Shown here piece after piece: positions 15,490 through 45,629 of a DNA stretch of 45,629 bases. Source of the DNA: a virus. Numbering within the stretch: position 1 is the first letter of the stretch; each line of letters starts with the position of its first letter. The DNA is taken from IMG/VR virus record IMGVR_UViG_3300047481_002084, positions 1-45,629 of that record; one strand, given 5' to 3'. Below the pieces are notes generated by a model, which was given only the letters and a program-made list of their open reading frames with translations, did not search any database and was not told the DNA's origin. The position numbers were made by a program, and so were the translations under genes.

Positions 15490-16359
15490 TCATAGTACAG
15501 GCATTTCGTATTCCTGGGTAGTGTTGCAGTAATGCTTGAAGATCACCTCGCTTGTGTTTCCCGCCCATGCAGCGACTTGAGGTACGGGAATCCCTGCTTC
15601 GATCCAACGGCTGATGGCGGTGTGGCGACAGTCGTAAGGACGGTATAAGTGTGAGATTAGTTCTACTTGTTTGAGAGGGCTTAGCTTTTTACGAAAGTAG
15701 CTCTGGAAGGCAAGGCGATCCCAAGGAAATAAATACTCATCTGTTTGAGGTAAACTAGATAGTATGTCGAGACAGCGTTGGTTAAGTGGTACCCAGCGTT
15801 TTTTGTTAGTTTTTGTACTATTTTTTATTCCATGAGTAAGTGTGTAATTTTGATGGACTAACACACGATTATCTTTAATGTCGTTCCACGTTAGCGCACG
15901 GACTTCACCTGTGCGCATAGCTGTTTGGAGCATAAACTCTGTGTATAAAGCCCAGTTAACGTGCTTGTACGTTTGCTTAGCTTCTAATGCGGCTAGGACA
16001 AGTCCTACTTCATTACGCGGTATTACTATTATATCTTCATCTTTTTGGGGTGCTTTGGGCATTTTGAAGCTAGCTAACGGGTTACGCGGTATAAGTGCTA
16101 CGTCTTCCTGCGCAGCCCAGCGATACATTGTTTTAAGATACATAGCAACACGTCTGGATGTGAGTACTGGCTGTTGACCTAGTACCCAGATCATGATCTC
16201 ACGAGCTCGGGAAATATCTTGCTGAGGGCAGCGAGCTAGCCATTTAGTAACTTGCTTGTAGTCTGATGTAAGACTTGTCGGGCAAAGCGATATGGCGCGT
16301 TCTGTTTGGAAAGCGATCCACAGATCGGATAGGAGCATGCTGATAGGTTGAGCCAGCAC
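15490..16359 (-). CDS. int: Tyrosine recombinase / integrase
   Basis: GTG at 16359 or ATG at 16338 (289 or 282 aa). An N-terminal SAM-like core-binding domain (about 10-100) is followed by the catalytic domain with R149 (M-R-T-G-E-V-R), a lysine in K-T-N-K-K-R-W-V-P-L (about 183-190), Y-D-C-R-H-T (R245, H246), a G-N-T-S where many enzymes have G-H (N268), and the nucleophile Y277 in F-K-H-Y. The Y-D-x-R-H form and Asn variant are tolerated in phage integrases. It would catalyse integration into the host chromosome, so the phage is probably temperate. Low-GC codon use differs from neighbouring genes. Confidence 0.9.
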   Translation of the reverse strand: MLAQPISMLLSDLWIAFQTERAISLCPTSLTSDYKQVTKWLARCPQQDISRAREIMIWVLGQQPVLTSRRVAMYLKTMYRWAAQEDVALIPRNPLASFKMPKAPQKDEDIIVIPRNEVGLVLAALEAKQTYKHVNWALYTEFMLQTAMRTGEVRALTWNDIKDNRVLVHQNYTLTHGIKNSTKTNKKRWVPLNQRCLDILSSLPQTDEYLFPWDRLAFQSYFRKKLSPLKQVELISHLYRPYDCRHTAISRWIEAGIPVPQVAAWAGNTSEVIFKHYCNTTQEYEMPVL

Positions 16360-34291: not shown

Positions 34292-34738
34292 TTACGCAGG
34301 GTCAGAGGCACCGGCAGCAAGCGCGGCGTAGACGTGCAGAGGTACCCGACGTGTGCGCACGAGCTCGGAGAGGATGAACTTCGTGGGGGCGTCGGGGCCA
34401 TCGGCAGTGGCCGATGCAGGTTTCCAATCGGGGAAGGGTAGGAAGTCGCGCGGTTGCGCTTTGGGCGCGGAGCGCTTCGAGCCTGAGAAGCCATGCGCGA
34501 TCTGAATGAGCACCGCGGTGAGGCGTGCGGTGCTCATGCTCTGCGTGTTGGCCAGACCGCGATCAAGGTCATCGATCTGGCGCAGCAGCCAGCGGATTGT
34601 GCTGATAGGGGTGCGGAGGAAGCTTGCCGGTGTGAAATCTCCACCTACCGGAGAGGCGCGAAGGCGGAAGTAGACCGAGTCCCAGTCCGCCAGCGGAGCA
34701 CGGAGGACGTCCTCGGCGTTCTTCAGGATTTGCTCGGG
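34292..34738 (-). CDS. Tail assembly chaperone GT extension (expressed by -1 frameshift)
   Basis: The frame from about 34738 to 34292 is open, has natural composition from P-E-Q-I-L-K-N-A-E-D-V-L to the end, and lacks a good start upstream of it: the internal ATG at 34537 would lose its first 68 residues, which read as real protein (A-D-W-D-S-V-Y-F-R-L-R-A-S-P-V-G-G-D-F). It is reached from the preceding G-like gene by a -1 shift at 34735-34743. The product would be G fused to a 148-aa T-like part, which in lambda recruits tail tube protein to the tape measure. The order G, GT, tape measure is conserved. Confidence 0.8.
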   Translation of the reverse strand, partial: PEQILKNAEDVLRAPLADWDSVYFRLRASPVGGDFTPASFLRTPISTIRWLLRQIDDLDRGLANTQSMSTARLTAVLIQIAHGFSGSKRSAPKAQPRDFLPFPDWKPASATADGPDAPTKFILSELVRTRRVPLHVYAALAAGASDPA

Positions 34739-35265
34739 GGTGGGCTGAACTCGGGCTCCGCCTCCGGTTCTTTTCCCTCCGCAGTGGGCCAGCCATCGCG
34801 CTCCCAGGTGAGCAGCTCGAAGATCTGCTCCATCAGCCGGGTGGGGATGGCCTCGGTGTCGGCCTCGGTCCAGTCGTCGAGCTTCTGCCAGTCCTTGGAG
34901 CGGGGGAGCTTGGCTTCGCCGCGGTACTGCATGAAGAGAGTGACGAAGGCCACCTGCTGCTCGACGGCGCCGACCGAGTCGCGCTGCAGTTCTTCAAGGT
35001 CGCCGGCATAGTCGTAGAGGAGCTCTTGGTCGTTCTCGGCAGAGCTGCTCAGCAGGTCGATTGCTTCTTTGGTTGTGATGCCTTTATCTTTAGCGATTCG
35101 CTGCGCGAGCTTGATAGAGCGAAAGGTCGATTTAGATTGTTTGCGACCTAGCGCTTCGATGCCTTTAGCTTCGCCGGGTACCAAGTCGTGGTAAACAGGA
35201 AAGCGGAAAGGTCCAATCTCGTGGTACTCCTCGGGTGAAAAGAGTAGCGACGCGTATTTAGACAT
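34723..35265 (-). CDS. Tail assembly chaperone, lambda G-like (180 aa)
   Basis: ATG at 35265 (M-S-K-Y-A-S-L-L-F) was chosen over an upstream start inside the neighbouring gene. The 180-aa acidic/helical protein has E-L-L-Y-D-Y-A-G-D-L-E-E-L-Q-R-D near 83-98 and an E-x-E-P-E-F-S-P-P-P-S-K-S tail ending at 34723. Its last codons carry the C-run frameshift site. In lambda G and GT help the tape measure protein fold. The upstream small gene overlaps the start by 8 bp. Confidence 0.8.
   Translation of the reverse strand: MSKYASLLFSPEEYHEIGPFRFPVYHDLVPGEAKGIEALGRKQSKSTFRSIKLAQRIAKDKGITTKEAIDLLSSSAENDQELLYDYAGDLEELQRDSVGAVEQQVAFVTLFMQYRGEAKLPRSKDWQKLDDWTEADTEAIPTRLMEQIFELLTWERDGWPTAEGKEPEAEPEFSPPPSKS
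34735..34743 (-). other. Predicted -1 ribosomal frameshift site
   Basis: Minus strand, zero frame: CCA CCC CCG AGC; one base back: ACC CCC GAG CAA. A run of five C (34740-34736) gives the tRNAs identical or near identical pairing after slipping back one base. It joins the G-like frame to the T-like frame 5 codons before the G stop. A slippery C-run is less usual than the A- or G-type heptamers. Confidence 0.6.
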
Positions 35266-35491
35266 CGGTGAGCGGTAGATCGATGGACCAGGACCTGAAG
35301 GGCTCAGCTTGATTGACGAGCTCGTCAGGTAGTTCAACCATCACGCTAGCAGCTTCATACGCCAGGCGTATAGACTTAAACGGGATCAGGGGCTCCAAGT
35401 ACAAGGCGCCGCAGTGAAGGGTGTCGCCCTGTACTTGGCAGTTCACTGCATAGACCATGTGGGCGGCATCCATTAAGAGGTCGTGTTGCAT
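35258..35491 (-). CDS. Small hypothetical protein between major tail protein and chaperone (77 aa)
   Basis: ATG at 35491 gives 77 residues with strands and two cysteines: M-V-Y-A-V-N-C-Q-V-Q-G-D, then G-A-L-Y-L-E-P and S-V-M-V-E-L-P-D-E-L. It comes right after the terminator that follows the major tail protein, and overlaps the G-like start by 8 bp, so it is transcribed by readthrough with the tail tip genes. Possibly a tail assembly accessory factor; not recognised. Confidence 0.6.
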   Translation of the reverse strand: MQHDLLMDAAHMVYAVNCQVQGDTLHCGALYLEPLIPFKSIRLAYEAASVMVELPDELVNQAEPFRSWSIDLPLTDV

Positions 35492-38595: not shown

Positions 38596-39513
38596 TCAGG
38601 CCTTCTCGAGCACGATGGCGCTCTTGGGGTAGTAGAGCGCGAGGCCGCCGATGCGCGCGTGGGCGGCGACGGTGAACTCGAGCTCGGCACGCACGGGCGG
38701 GAAGAACTCGAGGGGCTGCGGAACGTGCAGCTGCAGCTTGTCGGGGCTGCGGTCGTAGCAGATCACGCGGTCCTTCGAGAGGACGCCGCCGGACTTGGAG
38801 GCTTCGAGCTCGTTGATGGGCTCGATGGCGGTGATCATGGGGTTGGTGCGCAGGAAGAACTCCATCACCGTGGTGTCGGAGGTGGTGCTGCGCGGGGTGG
38901 TGGAGATGATGCGGTACACGTTGTAGGGCACCAGCATCGTGTTGGGCATCTCCTTCATGTTGCTGTTCTGCACGATCCGCGTGGCGGGCTCGTTGAGCAG
39001 TTGCAGCATCTCGTCGGTGGTGATGTCCGCGGTGTCGAACCAATGGTCCGGCACCAGCTTGTCCACCTGGTTGTTGTTGAAGAAGCCTTTCATGCCGGAG
39101 GGGGCATCGCCGAAGTAGGCGATCTCCTGCACTTTCTCCTCGTAGGCGCGGCGCACGGCGTTGGCGCGGCGCTGCTCCAGGTTCATGCCGGGCACCATGG
39201 CGGCGGCACGGGTTTCCTGGACGGTGTAGGCGAAGGAAGCGCCGAGGCTGCGAACCGGGTGGGTGACTTCCTTGCGGAGCACGTCAGCGCGGGGCAGGTC
39301 CTGGGCTTTGTCGCCGATCACCTTCATCGAGCCTTGCTTGTCGAAGACGCGATAGGTGAAGGAATCAGCGCCGTTGCCGACCTCGGAGGAGACGGGGATA
39401 ACAGTGCTGTACTTGATGTCGGCGTACTCGACTTCAAACGCGCGGGCCAGGATGGATTCCAGCTCGCGGGCAAGAAAGAGGCCGACCGAGTCGTTACGGA
39501 TTTCGGTGGTCAT
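38596..39513 (-). CDS. Major capsid protein (DUF2184-type, HK97 fold; 305 aa)
   Basis: ATG at 39513 (M-T-T-E-I-R-N-D-S-V-G-L-F-L-A-R-E-L-E) chosen over an upstream shadow extension. The 305-aa protein contains F-A-Y-T-V-Q-E-T-R-A-A and A-V-R-R-A-Y-E-E-K-V-Q-E-I-A-Y-F-G, then P-L-E-F-F-P-P-V-R-A-E-L-E-F near the end, as in DUF2184 family coat proteins. It follows decoration-like and protease/scaffold genes in the usual order, so it should form the shell. Confidence 0.85.
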   Translation of the reverse strand: MTTEIRNDSVGLFLARELESILARAFEVEYADIKYSTVIPVSSEVGNGADSFTYRVFDKQGSMKVIGDKAQDLPRADVLRKEVTHPVRSLGASFAYTVQETRAAAMVPGMNLEQRRANAVRRAYEEKVQEIAYFGDAPSGMKGFFNNNQVDKLVPDHWFDTADITTDEMLQLLNEPATRIVQNSNMKEMPNTMLVPYNVYRIISTTPRSTTSDTTVMEFFLRTNPMITAIEPINELEASKSGGVLSKDRVICYDRSPDKLQLHVPQPLEFFPPVRAELEFTVAAHARIGGLALYYPKSAIVLEKA

Positions 39514-39529
39514 GGGAGGGGCTCCGGGA

Positions 39530-40150
39530 TCAGGTGTCGGCGGTGAAGGTGATCCCCGGGATGTCGATCTCGAGGAGGACCAGGCCGGCGCCACTGGTTT
39601 CAGACAGCCAGCGAGCTCCGCCAGTCATGGCGAAGGTCTTGTTGGCCACGGCGGTCTTGGTGAAGCGACCCACGTAGGCACCGGTGACGGTGGACGAGTG
39701 GTCGACGCCAAAGAAGCGCACTGCGTCACCGAGGGCGATGGCGGCGGTGCTGTAGACCCAGACGACGCCTTTGGAGACGACGTTCATGGTCTTGCCGTCG
39801 GGGTAGCCCACGCGGAGGGAGCCGTCGCCGATGACGTTGGTGGGGTTGGGGGTGTAGGCGGAGCTGCCGCCGACGCCCTCGAAGGTCAGACCGTCAACAG
39901 CGAGGCCCACAACGCCGGTGCCGCTGGTGGCCAGCAGGACGGCGAAGGGATCGTTACCAACGGGGTCGTTGTCGGTGGCAACCAGGGAGCCGAAGGGGAT
40001 GGCGACGCCGGACTGGTTGTAGTAGCTGCGGGACACATAGGCCTGCAGGTCAGCGATCATGCCCTCGTGGCCCACGGTCAGCTCCAGGGGATAGCTGCCT
40101 TGAGCACCGGTCGGGTTGCTGACAACGGTGGGGGTGAAAGAAACGGCCAT
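39530..40150 (-). CDS. Capsid decoration or cement protein candidate (206 aa)
   Basis: 206 aa, strand-rich and glycine-rich: M-A-V-S-F-T-P-T-V-V-S-N-P-T-G-A-Q-G-S-Y then S-G-V-A-I-P-F-G-S-L-V near 45-56, G-K-T-M-N-V-V-S-K-G-V-V-W-V-Y near 118-132 and G-D-A-V-R-F-F near 141-147. The G-x-V-W-V-x-x-x-x-x-x-x-G-D-x-V-R pattern is what structural cement proteins next to the coat gene show. Between protease/scaffold and coat genes. Confidence 0.65.
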   Translation of the reverse strand: MAVSFTPTVVSNPTGAQGSYPLELTVGHEGMIADLQAYVSRSYYNQSGVAIPFGSLVATDNDPVGNDPFAVLLATSGTGVVGLAVDGLTFEGVGGSSAYTPNPTNVIGDGSLRVGYPDGKTMNVVSKGVVWVYSTAAIALGDAVRFFGVDHSSTVTGAYVGRFTKTAVANKTFAMTGGARWLSETSGAGLVLLEIDIPGITFTADT

Positions 40151-40162
40151 TGGAGGTACTCC

Positions 40163-41440
40163 TTACTTGGTGGCGGTGAGGGGACGTTTCCAGGCGTCAA
40201 CCGTGCGGCTGCGGTAGGCAGCGATGGGGTTGGCGGTGGACTGGCCGGCACCTTTCAGCGCATCACGCAGGGCGGTGGTGCTGTCGGCGCGGTCGGAATC
40301 GGCGTCCTCTTTGGTCTCCTCGTCGCCTTCGGCGGAGTCGTCCTCGGAGTCGGCGTCTTCGTCGCCTTCGGCGTCAGCGCGAGCGGCGAGGATGCCTTCA
40401 ACCACGCCCTGGATGTAGGCGGGTTCGGCGTCTCCGCGCGGGGCGGAGCCGGTGAGGTTCTCGAAGGCCTGTACGTACAGGGAGGCGTCGTCGATGCCGT
40501 CGAACTTGAAGTCCTCGGTGAACGCGGGGGCGAGTCGCTGCAGCGTGGCGAGGCGCTCGGCGACGAGCTGGTCGAGCTCGGCGGTATCGATGCGGGCTTC
40601 GGTGGAGGCAGCGAGCTGCTCCTCGAGAGCGTCGGCGCGACCTTCAGCGGCCTCTTTGTCGTAGGCCAGAGCGTCGAAATCGGCCTGCAGAGAATCGAGC
40701 TTGGTGGCAAGCTCGTCGCGCTCGGTGGTGAGGGCTTGCAGTTGGCGCCCCATGTCCCGGGAGTAGGACTGGACCGCGCTGGCTGCTTCTGCGGGCAGAT
40801 CGATCTCCAGGCCGTCGAGTTTGACGGTTGCCATAACGGGAGATGCAGTTGAACTGGACTGGGGCGCCATTTCGTGCTCGGGGAAGGCGGCTACAGCATC
40901 GGCTGCATCCATTCGGTCGAGCAAGAGTCGTACCTCCGGGCCAGCCCGGCCGCGGGGGACAATGGCGATGTGGTTCACCCGGATGTTGCGCTGGACGCCG
41001 GCGTACTCTTCGCCCTCGGGGGTGATCCCGGGGGTCGGGTCGAAGTCGACTTTGTAGCCGGCGGATACCTCGGTGGCATCCTTGCGCTTGATCTTCTCGA
41101 TGGCGTCGGCGTCGGTGACGACGAGCGCGACTTCGACAAAACCGTCGTTGTACCGGACCTGGCTACCGGAGTAGCCGACCTGGAACTGTTTGGTGTTGGC
41201 GGAGTCGAGAAGAACAGGTGGGTGACCCCACGTTGCGGGCTTCATGCCGAACGTGGAGAGGGAGTCCGGGCTACTGACCTCCTCCGGAGGGCGGTATTCA
41301 CGGACTTGGGAGCCATCAGCACGGCGGTAGAGCTGTGTGCCCGAGCGGGCAGCACGGCACCAGACCCGGAGGTAGCCCTCTGGGGTGGTCTCGCTGCCAG
41401 TTATGGGAGCGAAGTCGTACCTGGATACTGATGTTTCCAT
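40163..41440 (-). CDS. Prohead protease (DUF2213-type) fused to scaffold-like coiled coil (425 aa)
   Basis: 425 aa. The N-terminal half (1-180) has R-Y-D-F-A-P-I, T-P-E-G-Y-L-R-V, Y-R-P-P-E-E-V, W-G-H-P-P-V-L-L, Y-N-D-G-F-V-E-V-A-L-V-V and V-N-H-I-A-I-V-P-R-G-R-A-G, the DUF2213 pattern. The second half is coiled coil (about 230-290) and then an extremely acidic segment (about 355-390), as in scaffolds. A single protein would thus direct shell assembly and later remove itself. It is followed by decoration and coat genes. Confidence 0.8.
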   Translation of the reverse strand: METSVSRYDFAPITGSETTPEGYLRVWCRAARSGTQLYRRADGSQVREYRPPEEVSSPDSLSTFGMKPATWGHPPVLLDSANTKQFQVGYSGSQVRYNDGFVEVALVVTDADAIEKIKRKDATEVSAGYKVDFDPTPGITPEGEEYAGVQRNIRVNHIAIVPRGRAGPEVRLLLDRMDAADAVAAFPEHEMAPQSSSTASPVMATVKLDGLEIDLPAEAASAVQSYSRDMGRQLQALTTERDELATKLDSLQADFDALAYDKEAAEGRADALEEQLAASTEARIDTAELDQLVAERLATLQRLAPAFTEDFKFDGIDDASLYVQAFENLTGSAPRGDAEPAYIQGVVEGILAARADAEGDEDADSEDDSAEGDEETKEDADSDRADSTTALRDALKGAGQSTANPIAAYRSRTVDAWKRPLTATK

Positions 41441-41718: not shown

Positions 41719-42984
41719 TCAGACGATTTCGAACCAGGCCAGATCGAGGAACAGTTTGGCGGCGTCGTTGGTGGGAACAGCTGCAATGAGGAGGACGTCG
41801 CTGGTGCCGGAGATGGTGCGGCCAAGCTGGAAGTTGAAGTCCGTGATGCTGCCGAGGTCGAGGGACGACGAGCTCGTGAGGTAGCCGCCGGCGATCTCGG
41901 TGCCACCGGTGAAGCTGCTGATGGTGGTGTTGTACTGGACGTTGTTGTTGAAGTGCGTGGACCAGGTACCGCCTGTGATGGTGGGGTTCAGGAGTACCTG
42001 GTACTGGACGATGTCGAGCTTGTTGTTGGTGGTCTGCTCGACAGCGGCGCTGACATTGGAGGGGACGATCACGCTGTCCAGGCGCGTGCTGTTGAGGCGG
42101 ATCGCCATGATTGGGTAGCTGGTGCCAGCGGTCGCGAGCGTGATGGCGGTAGATCCGGTGGAGAGGTTGTAGCGGCGGCTGAAGCCTTCGTATCCGCCCT
42201 CGGAGGCGACGGTGGCGCAGATCTGCTTGGCGGTTGCGGAAGCGGCGGTGGTGCCTGTGTTCTCGATCTCCTGGCGGAGGGGGAGAACAGCGGTGGTCAT
42301 GTAGCTGGTCGTGTTGATGTTGTCGCCGTGGAAGGTGTGGGCGATCACCATGCGGCCGTCGACGACGAAGCCGCAGCGGACGTCGCCGACGCCAAGCCAC
42401 TCGATGTCGATCCAGGAGATCTGGGTTTTGGCGAGGTCTAGGGTGCGGCCGGACAGGCCTGTGCCGTCGAGCTTGTCACCGTTCCAGTCGGCTTGGGCGA
42501 TGCGGGTGTTGACCACACTGCCAGTGACGTAGCTGCGGCGGACGAGGTAGGTGGTGGTGCCGTCGCTCTCGAGGTAGATGCCGTTCTGGGTGCTGAAGTA
42601 GCCGATGCGTTGGCGCAGGTTGGCCTGGGCAGTGGCGAAGGCGAAGGACGTCATCACCAGCAGTGATTTGCCGGGCTGGTAGGGGAAGACGCGCTTGGTT
42701 TCGCGATAGACGTAGGCGCCGGATGTGGTGGGAACGGTGAGATTGATGGAGCTTTCGTTAGCGACGTATGTCTTAGAGGCGCCACCGTTTAGTGCAGTGT
42801 CCCATTTGTCGTTTTCTTGATAGCGATGCTGGCTATCGAAGATGGTGAATGGGGAGCTGGTGCGGAGGCGACCAAAGGCGTCTCCGCTGGTACCGGTATT
42901 GGCGAGTACGGGTACTGGGTATTCAACGTCGCCGCGAACGTACTCGAGTTCGTAGCGATCATTGTTGACGATTCGTTGGCCCAT
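41719..42984 (-). CDS. Virion structural protein (421 aa)
   Basis: 421 aa, begins M-G-Q-R-I-V-N-N-D-R-Y-E-L-E-Y-V-R-G-D, with strands throughout: G-D-A-F-G-R-L-R-T-S-S-P-F-T-I-F-D-S-Q near 33-51, W-I-D-I-E-W-L-G-V-G-D-V-R-C-G-F-V-V-D-G near 190-210, H-T-F-H-G-D-N near 215. From memory similar proteins are common virion components of marine phages. Placed between kinase and protease, so head-associated or a fibre/decoration. Function not further defined. Confidence 0.65.
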   Translation of the reverse strand: MGQRIVNNDRYELEYVRGDVEYPVPVLANTGTSGDAFGRLRTSSPFTIFDSQHRYQENDKWDTALNGGASKTYVANESSINLTVPTTSGAYVYRETKRVFPYQPGKSLLVMTSFAFATAQANLRQRIGYFSTQNGIYLESDGTTTYLVRRSYVTGSVVNTRIAQADWNGDKLDGTGLSGRTLDLAKTQISWIDIEWLGVGDVRCGFVVDGRMVIAHTFHGDNINTTSYMTTAVLPLRQEIENTGTTAASATAKQICATVASEGGYEGFSRRYNLSTGSTAITLATAGTSYPIMAIRLNSTRLDSVIVPSNVSAAVEQTTNNKLDIVQYQVLLNPTITGGTWSTHFNNNVQYNTTISSFTGGTEIAGGYLTSSSSLDLGSITDFNFQLGRTISGTSDVLLIAAVPTNDAAKLFLDLAWFEIV

Positions 42985-43019: not shown

Positions 43020-44531
43020 CTACAGCGGGGTACCGAAGGGCTGCCGGCGCTCGCGGGCGCGACGGGCGGCGCGCTCGGGCTCTAGGGCTCGTTGCAGCTG
43101 CGGAACTTTGACCCCGAGAGCTTTGGCTGCCTCGCTCATGTTGATGAGCCCGCGCTCCATGGCTTGGCGCGGAGCTGTACGGGCGTTGGCCGTCAGGATA
43201 CGGCGGGTCAGGCCGGGGATGCGGGGTTGATCGGCACCGCTGACGAAGCGGGAGCGGGGTATGCGGTCCTCCGCGAGGAGTTCGCGCTCGAGTGCGTCGT
43301 GGTAGCGCTTGACTGCGATCTCAAAGCGCTCGGTGTTGTCTGCGCCGCCGTAGGTAGCAAGTGCTTTTGCCTGCTTTTCTACGTTAGCTAATACGCCTTT
43401 GTATTTGTTAGTAAAATCAGCGCCGCGTGAGCTAAAACCTAAGAAGTCGGGAAGCCTACCCATATCGTACATCAAATTCATTACGCCGTTGCGATAGTGT
43501 GCTGGCTGCCTGCCGTCGTGTAGTTCTGTGGCGTAGCCGAAGTCGATCAATGCTACTTTTTTGCTCTTAGCATTAACCATGAGATTTCCGTTATGGATGT
43601 CTCCGTGGGCTAAGCCGGCTGTGTGTAGCTTGCGGAACTCGCGCGCGATTTTTGTTTTAACAATTAGTGGTGCATTTGAAGCGTTACCGTATGAGTCGCG
43701 GTATTCCTTACCCAAAGTCTTGTAGCCCTTCATATGGGTCAGTACGAGAGTCTGCGATCTGACTTCGCCATCGATGTCTCTGACTGCTTGCATACGCAAC
43801 GGCGAAGGAACATTGACGCCAGCATGATCAGCTAGATCCAAGCGCCTGAACTCGCTGGCTACATCGTCCTCGTCGCCGTTGCGGAACAGTTTGATGCCGT
43901 ACTTCTCGGATGGGTGAACGAAGTAGGTGCCAAAAGCTCCTGCACCTGCTTGGCAGCGTGGTTGGTTGACGTAGCCTCCCGCAGATGCGAGGCCCTGGCT
44001 GCCGGTAGACACCAAGGCGAGGGCGTGCATAGCCCCGGTGGAAAGGCCGTACCAATCGGTATCGGCGTCAAATTTCCCCGGGGCTTGGGTCTTTCCCAGG
44101 CCACCGCCGCATTCAGCAGCGCGGCGGCGCTGGTTGATCTGGTCCTGGACATCCCACGTCTGGCCTCCTGCGAGGGCTTCGTCGACGAGGCGCTGAGCTT
44201 CGTCCTCGGTGAGCTTGGGGTTGTTCAGCTTGTTGGCGGGGTTTTTGTCCCACGCCTCTTTGGTCATGTACTTACTGGCGATGGCGGCACCTCCTGCTAC
44301 TACGCCTGCGACGAGAGCGACTTTAGCAGCTGTTTTGAGGGTTTCTGCTGTTATACCGCTTGCGTTTTTAGTGCATTTGTGCGCTTTGGGGATGTGGGAA
44401 TTGCCGCAGGGCTTCCCCGGGCCGCCGGAGGGGGCGTCGTTCCTTACCAGGCCGAGGACTTTCCCGGCGTAAGCGCGTCGTCGCGGCGGGATACCTTGCC
44501 GCTGCAGCGCCACTTGGTGCGCGACAAGCAC
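43020..44531 (-). CDS. Eukaryotic-like protein kinase with membrane segment, in the head module
   Basis: The GTG at 44531 gives 503 aa; the first ~30 residues overlap the previous gene and the true start may be downstream (GTG at 44513, or near 44450). Residues 40-55 carry C-G-N-S-H-I-P-K-A-H-K-C; 67-88 a hydrophobic segment (A-L-V-A-G-V-V-A-G-G-A-A-I-A). The kinase domain (about 196-420) is complete: glycine loop G-A-F-G-T-Y-F (198-204), K214 in Y-G-I-K-L-F, E227, catalytic loop H-G-D-I-H-N-G-N (309-316), D330-F-G. Resembles Bud32/RIO or WaaP-like kinases. Target unknown; a virion-borne kinase is unusual. Confidence 0.85.
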   Translation of the reverse strand: MLVAHQVALQRQGIPPRRRAYAGKVLGLVRNDAPSGGPGKPCGNSHIPKAHKCTKNASGITAETLKTAAKVALVAGVVAGGAAIASKYMTKEAWDKNPANKLNNPKLTEDEAQRLVDEALAGGQTWDVQDQINQRRRAAECGGGLGKTQAPGKFDADTDWYGLSTGAMHALALVSTGSQGLASAGGYVNQPRCQAGAGAFGTYFVHPSEKYGIKLFRNGDEDDVASEFRRLDLADHAGVNVPSPLRMQAVRDIDGEVRSQTLVLTHMKGYKTLGKEYRDSYGNASNAPLIVKTKIAREFRKLHTAGLAHGDIHNGNLMVNAKSKKVALIDFGYATELHDGRQPAHYRNGVMNLMYDMGRLPDFLGFSSRGADFTNKYKGVLANVEKQAKALATYGGADNTERFEIAVKRYHDALERELLAEDRIPRSRFVSGADQPRIPGLTRRILTANARTAPRQAMERGLINMSEAAKALGVKVPQLQRALEPERAARRARERRQPFGTPL

Positions 44532-45163
44532 AGCGGAGTGTTGCGATCGGGCCCGCTGCAGTCCTTGCCGTGGGACTTCATGTCGCCGAAGCTGCGGGCG
44601 CAGTAGCGGTCGCCTTTGGCGGTGCCGGGGGCGATGGTGTAGCCCTTAGCGCCGTAGCGGACGCGGTTCTTGCGGCCGGTCTCGGGGTTGGTGACGGTCT
44701 TGGAGTACTTCTTGCCGTCCTCGGCGTCGAAGCCTGCTGCCCAAACGTCGGTTTTGGAGCTCACCATGACAGGGGCGCCGGTGCGCTCCTTGCGTGGGTC
44801 TTCGCGGCGCTTGCGGGCGACGAGGCGGCGGCGCTCAGCAGGGGAAAGCGCCATCGCTTTGGCGGCCGGGAGGCATTTGGGCTTGCCTTCGCCCTCGGTG
44901 CGGTCGCCACAGGAGCCGAGGATGCGGCCGGTGCTGCTCATGCGCACCCACTTCTCCTTGAACCACTTGTCGAGGGCGTCGTTACGGAAGGTGCCGCCGC
45001 GCTTTTTGTACTCGCGGACCATCCAGGCGTTGGCGTAGGCGCTCGGGTAGATCTTGAACTTGCGTTTGGCCTCGGCTTTGACAGCGGCGTGCAGCTTGGC
45101 GTCGGCGAAAACGACCCCGCGGGCATCGGCGCGTAGGCGCAGGGTCGCGGGGGTGAGGTTCAT
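44444..45163 (-). CDS. DUF5872-like protein in the head module (239 aa)
   Basis: 239 aa. N-terminal segment (1-60): K-R-K-F-K-I-Y-P-S-A-Y-A-N-A-W-M-V-R-E-Y-K-style helix; then K-W-F-K-E-K-W-V-R-M-S-S-T-G-R-I and K-C-L-P-A-A-K-A-M-A-L-S near 66-107, which match DUF5872-type proteins of phages and large viruses. C-terminal cysteines (R-Y-C-A-R-S, K-D-C-S, L-C-L-S-R-T-K-W-R-C-S-G) form a second module. Basic and probably internal to the virion. It lies between the partial first gene and the kinase. Confidence 0.65.
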   Translation of the reverse strand: MNLTPATLRLRADARGVVFADAKLHAAVKAEAKRKFKIYPSAYANAWMVREYKKRGGTFRNDALDKWFKEKWVRMSSTGRILGSCGDRTEGEGKPKCLPAAKAMALSPAERRRLVARKRREDPRKERTGAPVMVSSKTDVWAAGFDAEDGKKYSKTVTNPETGRKNRVRYGAKGYTIAPGTAKGDRYCARSFGDMKSHGKDCSGPDRNTPLCLSRTKWRCSGKVSRRDDALTPGKSSAW

Positions 45164-45629
45164 GGCTCGAAGCCGGCGGCCCAGACGGAATCGGAGCGCT
45201 TGGTTTTAGCTGCGCCCTTGCGGGTGGTCTTGCTGCCGCTCTTGTAGCCCATCTTGTTGAGGGTGCCGTAGATGTAGGCGGCGGCGCGTTCGCCTTTGAG
45301 GCCCCTGGCTGCAGCCTGTTTAGCGAGCTCGGCTTCCATCGCGGCAACTTTGGTACCGCGGGGATCCATGCGGGATTCGCTGTCGTTCGACATGGAGTCC
45401 AGACCCGGGGGGCGTTTGGCGGAGGGGCCACGATAAAGGCGCTCAAGGGAGGCGCGCTGCCTGGAGCGACGTGCTGTCCGGGCCATGGAGGCGGCGCCTA
45501 CGGCGGTGCCGATGGCACTACCGCCTGCGCTGATTGCGCGGAAGGTGGCTTCCTTCTTCAGGCGAGCTTTGCCTGCTGCACTGCTGGTTTCTTGTGCTTT
45601 GGCAAAGGTGTTGAGGGCGCGGCCAGCAC
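45160..45629 (-). CDS. Head-module protein (partial, N-terminus beyond window)
   Basis: The frame stays open to the right edge at 45627; at least 155 residues are visible. The visible start is A-G-R-A-L-N-T-F-A-K-A-Q-E, then I-S-A-G-G-S-A-I-G-T-A-V-G-A-A-S and a basic segment, and E-R-A-A-A-Y-I-Y-G-T-L-N-K-M-G-Y-K-S-G, a motif also seen in phage proteins that end in such a helix. It ends S-D-S-V-W-A-A-G-F-E-P, echoing V-W-A-A-G-F in the next gene. An internal ATG at 45486 is possible but upstream sequence reads as protein. Role unknown. Confidence 0.6.
   Translation of the reverse strand, partial: AGRALNTFAKAQETSSAAGKARLKKEATFRAISAGGSAIGTAVGAASMARTARRSRQRASLERLYRGPSAKRPPGLDSMSNDSESRMDPRGTKVAAMEAELAKQAAARGLKGERAAAYIYGTLNKMGYKSGSKTTRKGAAKTKRSDSVWAAGFEP

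Follow-up and report, generated by a model that had tools for sequence, protein, structure and literature searches.

What is an intact kinase doing among the head genes of a phage, and where does its coding sequence begin? The question is raised by a 503-codon open reading frame (43020-44531, minus strand) in the IMG/VR virus record IMGVR_UViG_3300047481_002084, all 45,629 nucleotides of which were analysed and are called the window below. A first-pass annotation had read this frame as the gene for a complete, eukaryotic-like protein kinase, with the basic gene next to it as a possible partner or substrate. The presence of the frame was verified in the window sequence, and the nature of its product, its boundaries and its equivalents in related loci are considered in turn.

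An atypical kinase

43266..43949, minus strand: kinase domain, residues 195-422 (Pfam, profile search, AlphaFold2 and Foldseek)
43929..43946, minus strand: glycine-rich loop GAGAFG, residues 196-201 (alignment and position check)
43890..43892, minus strand: catalytic lysine K214, invariant (alignment)
43851..43853, minus strand: helix-C glutamate E227, invariant (alignment)
43584..43607, minus strand: catalytic loop HGDIHNGN, residues 309-316, with H309, D311 and N316 invariant and G310 variable (alignment and position check)
43536..43544, minus strand: DFG, residues 330-332, invariant (alignment and position check)
43044..43202, minus strand: C-terminal helical region, residues 444-496, conserved, no function assigned (alignment and AlphaFold2)

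All of the kinase motifs named in the first-pass annotation are present, as are the N-terminal cysteine pair (C42/C53) and the hydrophobic segment (residues 67-85) that it described. Three Pfam families match the open reading frame above their cut-offs (APH, 3e-9; Kdo, 8e-9; ABC1, 9e-7), and a profile built from 25 sequences, the window kinase and 24 relatives, matches solved kinases with Bud32 as the best (9e-10). Within the kinase-like superfamily, the enzyme belongs with the atypical, APH/Kdo/RIO/Bud32-like members. To call it a kinase was therefore right and to call it eukaryotic-type too specific, given that the Pfam Pkinase model scores 26.9 bits, under its cut-off of 31.7, and for the same reason the substrate may not be a protein. 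In the AlphaFold2 model both the N-lobe and the C-lobe are confident (block pLDDT about 77-96 over residues 201-422), with at least four helices after DFG (349-418) making up the predicted C-lobe, while confidence is low in the linker (128-199) and in the first 36 residues. The Foldseek comparison that had been proposed for the domain returned kinases for all of the best solved structures, at probability 1.00, with TM-scores that are modest (0.33-0.51 by target) and include the poorly modelled parts.

K214, E227, H309, D311, N316 and D330-G332 are invariant in 25 of 25 aligned sequences, at identities down to 32%, and the catalytic residues are also kept in a divergent second kinase domain from the same phage group. 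Homologues with degenerate residues, which the earlier annotation would have counted against its reading, did not appear, and a degenerate pseudokinase is ruled out by this invariance. Selection on the domain is strongly purifying (dN 0.044 and dS 1.30 against relative L002; dN 0.095 and dS 1.48 against L015). Since the catalytic residues are invariant, the fold is confident and purifying selection is strong, the window encodes what is very probably an active kinase-like enzyme. No isolate with the window kinase was found among 50,697 phage records, and a search of 84,980 genomes for a cellular or prophage copy gave one weak, probably unrelated match only.

Predicted frameshift fusion to DUF5872

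The kinase frame is the exact -1 frame of its neighbour, a DUF5872 gene, and a slippery heptamer precedes that gene's stop codon. The sequence after the slip, here termed the payload, has a cysteine motif and a hydrophobic helix ahead of the kinase domain.

44444..45163, minus strand: DUF5872 gene, 239 aa, pI 10.3, 26.6 kDa; zero-frame product and N-terminal part of the predicted fusion (Pfam DUF5872, 5e-11)
44459..44465, minus strand: slippery heptamer GGGAAAG in the phase G_GGA_AAG, six codons 5' of the DUF5872 stop (sequence and relatives)
43020..44458, minus strand: predicted -1 frame extension after the slip, VLGLVRNDAP... to the stop (purifying selection only post-slip)
44373..44408, minus strand: cysteine motif CGNSHIPKAHKC, C42-C53 in the numbering of the kinase frame, start of the payload module (position checked)
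44277..44333, minus strand: Ala/Val-rich hydrophobic helix TAAKVALVAGVVAGGAAIA, residues 67-85, mean hydropathy 1.77 (AlphaFold2 and sequence)

A -1 shift at the heptamer would join ...ALTPGK to VLGLVRNDAPSGGPGKPCGNSHIPKAHKC... in a fusion of 714 aa and 78.0 kDa, and G_GGA_AAG is known to be highly shift-prone in E. coli (PMC5009743). The number of GGGAAAG heptamers in the window is ordinary (six seen, 5.7 expected); it is the phase, place and conservation of this one that stand out, and in its context the slip site occurs once. A scan of the whole window gave four arrangements of a slip site with a -1 extension, and the DUF5872/kinase extension is by far the longest. Consensus RNA stems are predicted 3' of the slip, with no covariation.

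In relatives the heptamer stands in the correct phase, 2-6 codons ahead of the DUF5872 stop. After deduplication 50 loci could be scored: the site is present in 23 of the 27 with a long -1 frame, and in the 23 with no such frame it is absent from 18 and present in five (Fisher p = 9.6e-6, which is only a guide because the loci were treated as independent and related phages are not). In three of the four long -1 frames that lack the site, a start codon is present at the junction or close by, judged by eye or from the start column. At least seven homologues (L009, L010, L013, L016, L018, L039 and L066) have no ATG, GTG or TTG in the payload frame until 42-61 codons after the slip, with the first start codon lying beyond the cysteine motif. 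In the other direction, a stop codon interrupts that frame 4-10 codons before the slip. Ahead of the slip the kinase frame shows pN > pS (three comparisons of 16-22 codons each, small numbers), a pattern that fits only DUF5872 being read there. Locus L014 encodes the predicted fusion in frame ('...SRRDGLTPGKVVGLARIDAPKGGKGKPCGESFIPKNNKC...') and a similar fusion, lacking the linker, is found in L017; since such in-frame fusions exist, a low ratio of fusion to zero-frame product would be inessential. The site is missing in payload-free close relatives, as seen when L024 is compared with L011, a contig whose kinase protein is 100% identical to that of the window and which extends farther upstream.

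The gene boundary proposed earlier is very probably wrong in view of these comparisons: its GTG (44531) falls within DUF5872, pN exceeds pS in the part of the frame before the slip, and in at least seven homologues the first possible start comes only after the motif. The neighbour is indeed basic, as had been noted, but would be the N-terminal part of the same product and not just a partner or substrate. There is little doubt, judging from the sequences compared, that the kinase is made as a -1 frameshift fusion with DUF5872, and the coding unit very probably begins with DUF5872 at 45163, changes to the -1 frame at 44459-44465 and ends at 43020.

The slip site is imperfectly tied to an enzyme, since six loci (L031, L032, L034, L035, L036 and L049) keep GGGAAAG 15 codons before the DUF5872 stop with a 31-aa extension only, and in L059 the site is followed by a 30-codon broken payload start (GKPYAKLVPNSAAK). 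The short extension is perhaps the remnant of a lost payload, and L059 has the appearance of a slot in decay. L060, L068, L071, L072, L076 and L099 carry another -1 extension, STAYYRTHPEAAAKKVRHQ..., after the same slip site. Elsewhere in the window a second -1 slip candidate, GGGAAAA (34771-34777, minus strand), belongs to an open reading frame at 34723-35337 whose -1 frame runs to 34292; it immediately precedes the tape-measure gene, the place expected of a tail-chaperone G/GT pair, and no PHROG match was found for the gene that contains it.

An exchangeable payload slot

The clearest view of the slot comes from L003 and L023, which are 97.2% identical until just after the cysteine motif and 94.9% identical after the slot; between these matching flanks L003 carries a kinase and L023 an ADP-ribosyltransferase (ART). 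The insert is absent from L024, and the slot is empty in many relatives. The L023 payload passes the ADPrib_exo_Tox cut-off (26.3 against 23.4 bits) and weakly matches phrog_832, RNA polymerase ADP-ribosylase (3.3e-5). A GNAT-like payload in L074 is distantly similar to a family whose model resembles GNATs, a fold that is weakly supported (best Foldseek E 5e-3, the matches being mostly GNATs). Comparison of the GNAT-like and ART payload sequences with solved structures gave nothing useful. The kinase in L030 is divergent, with HND, L060 encodes a HELGH metallopeptidase-like domain, and L066 and L097 have two payloads in tandem; the labels given to alpha/beta-hydrolase and metallopeptidase payloads are based on sub-threshold Pfam scores together with motifs. 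LRAT-like domains form a further payload class, located behind the same cysteine motif in a protein upstream of MuF (L018:1851-4736, L046:2-3055 and L048:1-3003; Pfam LRAT up to 4.9e-10). A catalogue of payloads built on regular expressions left 41 of 86 units unclassified, and no immunity gene was identified in the slot. On this evidence the slot is almost certainly exchangeable among relatives, with kinase, ADP-ribosyltransferase, GNAT-like, peptidase-like and empty versions. Large single proteins in which a kinase domain precedes DUF5872 were also seen (L030:4018-6693, L041:4006-6684 and L042:1063-6234), the last with two kinases and DUF5872.

In related loci, 127 instances of the motif CGxSHIPKxHxC were counted in proteins of the head region. 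A membrane-like helix lies within 75 residues after it in 48 of 86 distinct units, against one of 308 control blocks and 0-4 in shuffles. As far as sequence can tell, the motif, often with a membrane-like helix after it, marks payload units.

Genomic neighbourhood and host

45160..45627, minus strand: upstream gene, C-terminal part only, ending SDSVWAAGFEP (open reading frame list and L011)
41719..42984, minus strand: virion structural protein (phrog_1645), downstream boundary of the slot (5.8e-114)
40163..41440, minus strand: head maturation protease (DUF2213, phrog_530; Pfam and PHROG)
38596..39594, minus strand: major capsid protein (PF09950), best isolate match Synechococcus phage S-CBS4, 55.6%

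That the kinase is encoded among head genes, as first described, was borne out by Pfam and PHROG: it is flanked by MuF/DUF5872 on one side and by structural, protease, cement and major capsid genes on the other. In L011 the upstream order is portal, a 1148-aa multi-domain protein, MuF, two small proteins and DUF5872, with MuF a separate 287-aa gene that has no payload fused to it, and the full L011 version of the upstream gene that is cut off in the window starts with a related CGRGSISEGEKC motif. The 1148-aa protein (L011:1263-4709), between portal and MuF, combines a GNAT-like domain and a second intact kinase domain (RIO1, 1.8e-9) with two CGASHIPKAHxC units; large upstream payload proteins of this type were not found in isolates either (50,697 phage records). 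A VWA(A/D)GF motif is common to neighbouring head-region proteins (44729-44743 and 45169-45183, minus strand, and L011:5828-6625), twice at the C-terminus, and is possibly a cleavage or targeting signal.

The structural protein is about 47% identical to cyanophage and HMO-2011 structural proteins, and its phrog_1645 matches are mostly to Synechococcus phages. As the capsid is also nearest to that of S-CBS4, the host is likely cyanobacterial, although no isolate carries the window kinase and the host is to that extent deduced. S-CBS4 shares the capsid protein; the cysteine motif was not found in the stretch of it examined. S-TIM5 and roseophages have only a C-terminal piece of DUF5872, and neither a slip-linked kinase nor the cysteine motif was found in the S-TIM5 stretch examined. 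The window also encodes a sigma factor and a tyrosine integrase (15490-16359, minus strand; phrog_1, 2.5e-38), the latter suggesting a temperate or formerly temperate phage.

Proposed mechanism and alternatives

Taken as a whole, the best explanation, and a likely one, is a frameshift-attached kinase payload that is packaged via DUF5872 and injected. Most ribosomes would terminate DUF5872 normally while a fraction would slip -1 on G_GGA_AAG, and the slipped product would run from DUF5872 through CGxSHIPKxHKC and the hydrophobic helix to the kinase. DUF5872, basic and made with the head genes, would be the carrier, with the kinase as its exchangeable C-terminal payload; the virion would take up a restricted number of fusions, as built-in parts or as cargo, and these would pass into the cell alongside the DNA, where the kinase would phosphorylate a host target early in infection. 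In lambda the frameshift ratio is about 30:1 (PMC5009743). APH/ChoK/RIO-type kinases have been detected by mass spectrometry in the virions of cyanophages S-CRM01, S-TIM5, S-CBWM1 and S-CREM2 (PMC10665884), T4 Alt, of the RNA polymerase ADP-ribosylase class, is packaged and injected (PMC5512222), and head-linked ARTs offer a precedent (PMC9503650). By analogy with such systems, packaging of the kinase in the virion seems rather probable, and its injection and action on the host are favoured by a little. The chances are even for the broader proposal of a cargo-loading system, in which a conserved GGGAAAG slip would append exchangeable enzymes, each behind a module of CGxSHIPKxHxC and membrane helix, to the virion carrier DUF5872 in fixed minor amounts for injection. 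The sequence comparisons show the arrangement for frameshifting, the intact catalytic residues, the purifying selection and the exchange in the slot; we infer how efficiently ribosomes slip, that DUF5872 belongs to the virion, the packaging and injection steps, what the motif and helix do, that the kinase is active and what it phosphorylates.

A fusion that is made late and left unpackaged, acting in the producing cell, for example by phosphorylating head or host proteins during assembly, would suit the position of the kinase among late head genes, and the lambda gpG/gpGT pair shows that such products encoded near structural genes need not be virion components (PMC5009743). This is nonetheless unlikely: the swap for ART, GNAT-like or peptidase-like domains, or for nothing, in close relatives is unlike a fixed assembly role, and kinases of this type are found in cyanophage virions (PMC10665884). 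It is far less probable that the payload is directed at competing phages, or works in lysogens, and not at entry. The integrase gene is compatible with such a role and interchangeable payloads resemble polymorphic toxins (PMC5576092), but expression of the payload is tied to a late-type head gene, the slot has yielded no immunity gene and no prophage copy was found in the 84,980 genomes apart from the one weak match.

Equally improbable is an independent kinase gene with DUF5872 merely adjoining. The window does have GTG codons in the kinase frame upstream of the slip, but a start at 44531 or 44513 was rejected on the missing starts in relatives, the selection pattern before the slip and the natural in-frame fusions; the slip site is also kept with payloads of different kinds. 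The frameshift fusion thus remains the preferred reading of the coding unit.

Comparison with known systems

Frameshift extensions and injected phage enzymes are each already known. The virion kinases of S-CBWM1 (APH/ChoK/RIO2), S-CREM2, S-CRM01 and S-TIM5 resemble the window kinase in superfamily and in cyanophage setting, but those of S-CBWM1 are separately annotated genes with no frameshift fusion, only distantly related to it (about 29-35% identity over 45-77 residues), and no matching cysteine-motif module was seen in that phage. Lambda gpG/gpGT and gene 10 of T3/T7 are alike in that ribosomes slipping -1 late in a phage gene yield a C-terminally extended minority product (PMC5009743); their extensions are assembly domains, Ig-like domains or short tails, whereas that of the window is an enzyme which is swapped among relatives. 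Polyvalent proteins, MuF-linked effectors and T4 Alt are likewise multi-domain enzymes encoded with head genes, for which packaging and injection have been predicted or shown, and the ART, GNAT and kinase classes recur both among polyvalent and MuF-linked effectors and in slots of the window type (PMC5512222, PMC9503650). The kinases of polyvalent proteins have lost the C-terminal subdomain (Iyer 2017), unlike the window kinase with its predicted C-lobe helices, and the window payload differs from MuF polymorphic toxins in being joined, as predicted, by frameshifting to DUF5872 and not fused to MuF. Retroviral Gag-Pol is similar in principle, as a frameshift fuses an enzyme to a particle protein and so limits the number packaged (PMC5009743), although it is unrelated to the window system, where packaging is a prediction.

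No account of frameshifting as a means to attach swappable enzymes to a head-region protein turned up in the open-access papers searched, an absence that is no proof of novelty. If the proposed system is real, it would explain how an effector could be loaded by a phage in a few copies, it would show that automatic gene calling misassigns such fused proteins as separate genes, and GGGAAAG at the end of DUF5872 would serve as a signature for finding further effectors, many of them of unknown type. What cyanophages inject besides DNA would then become directly testable.
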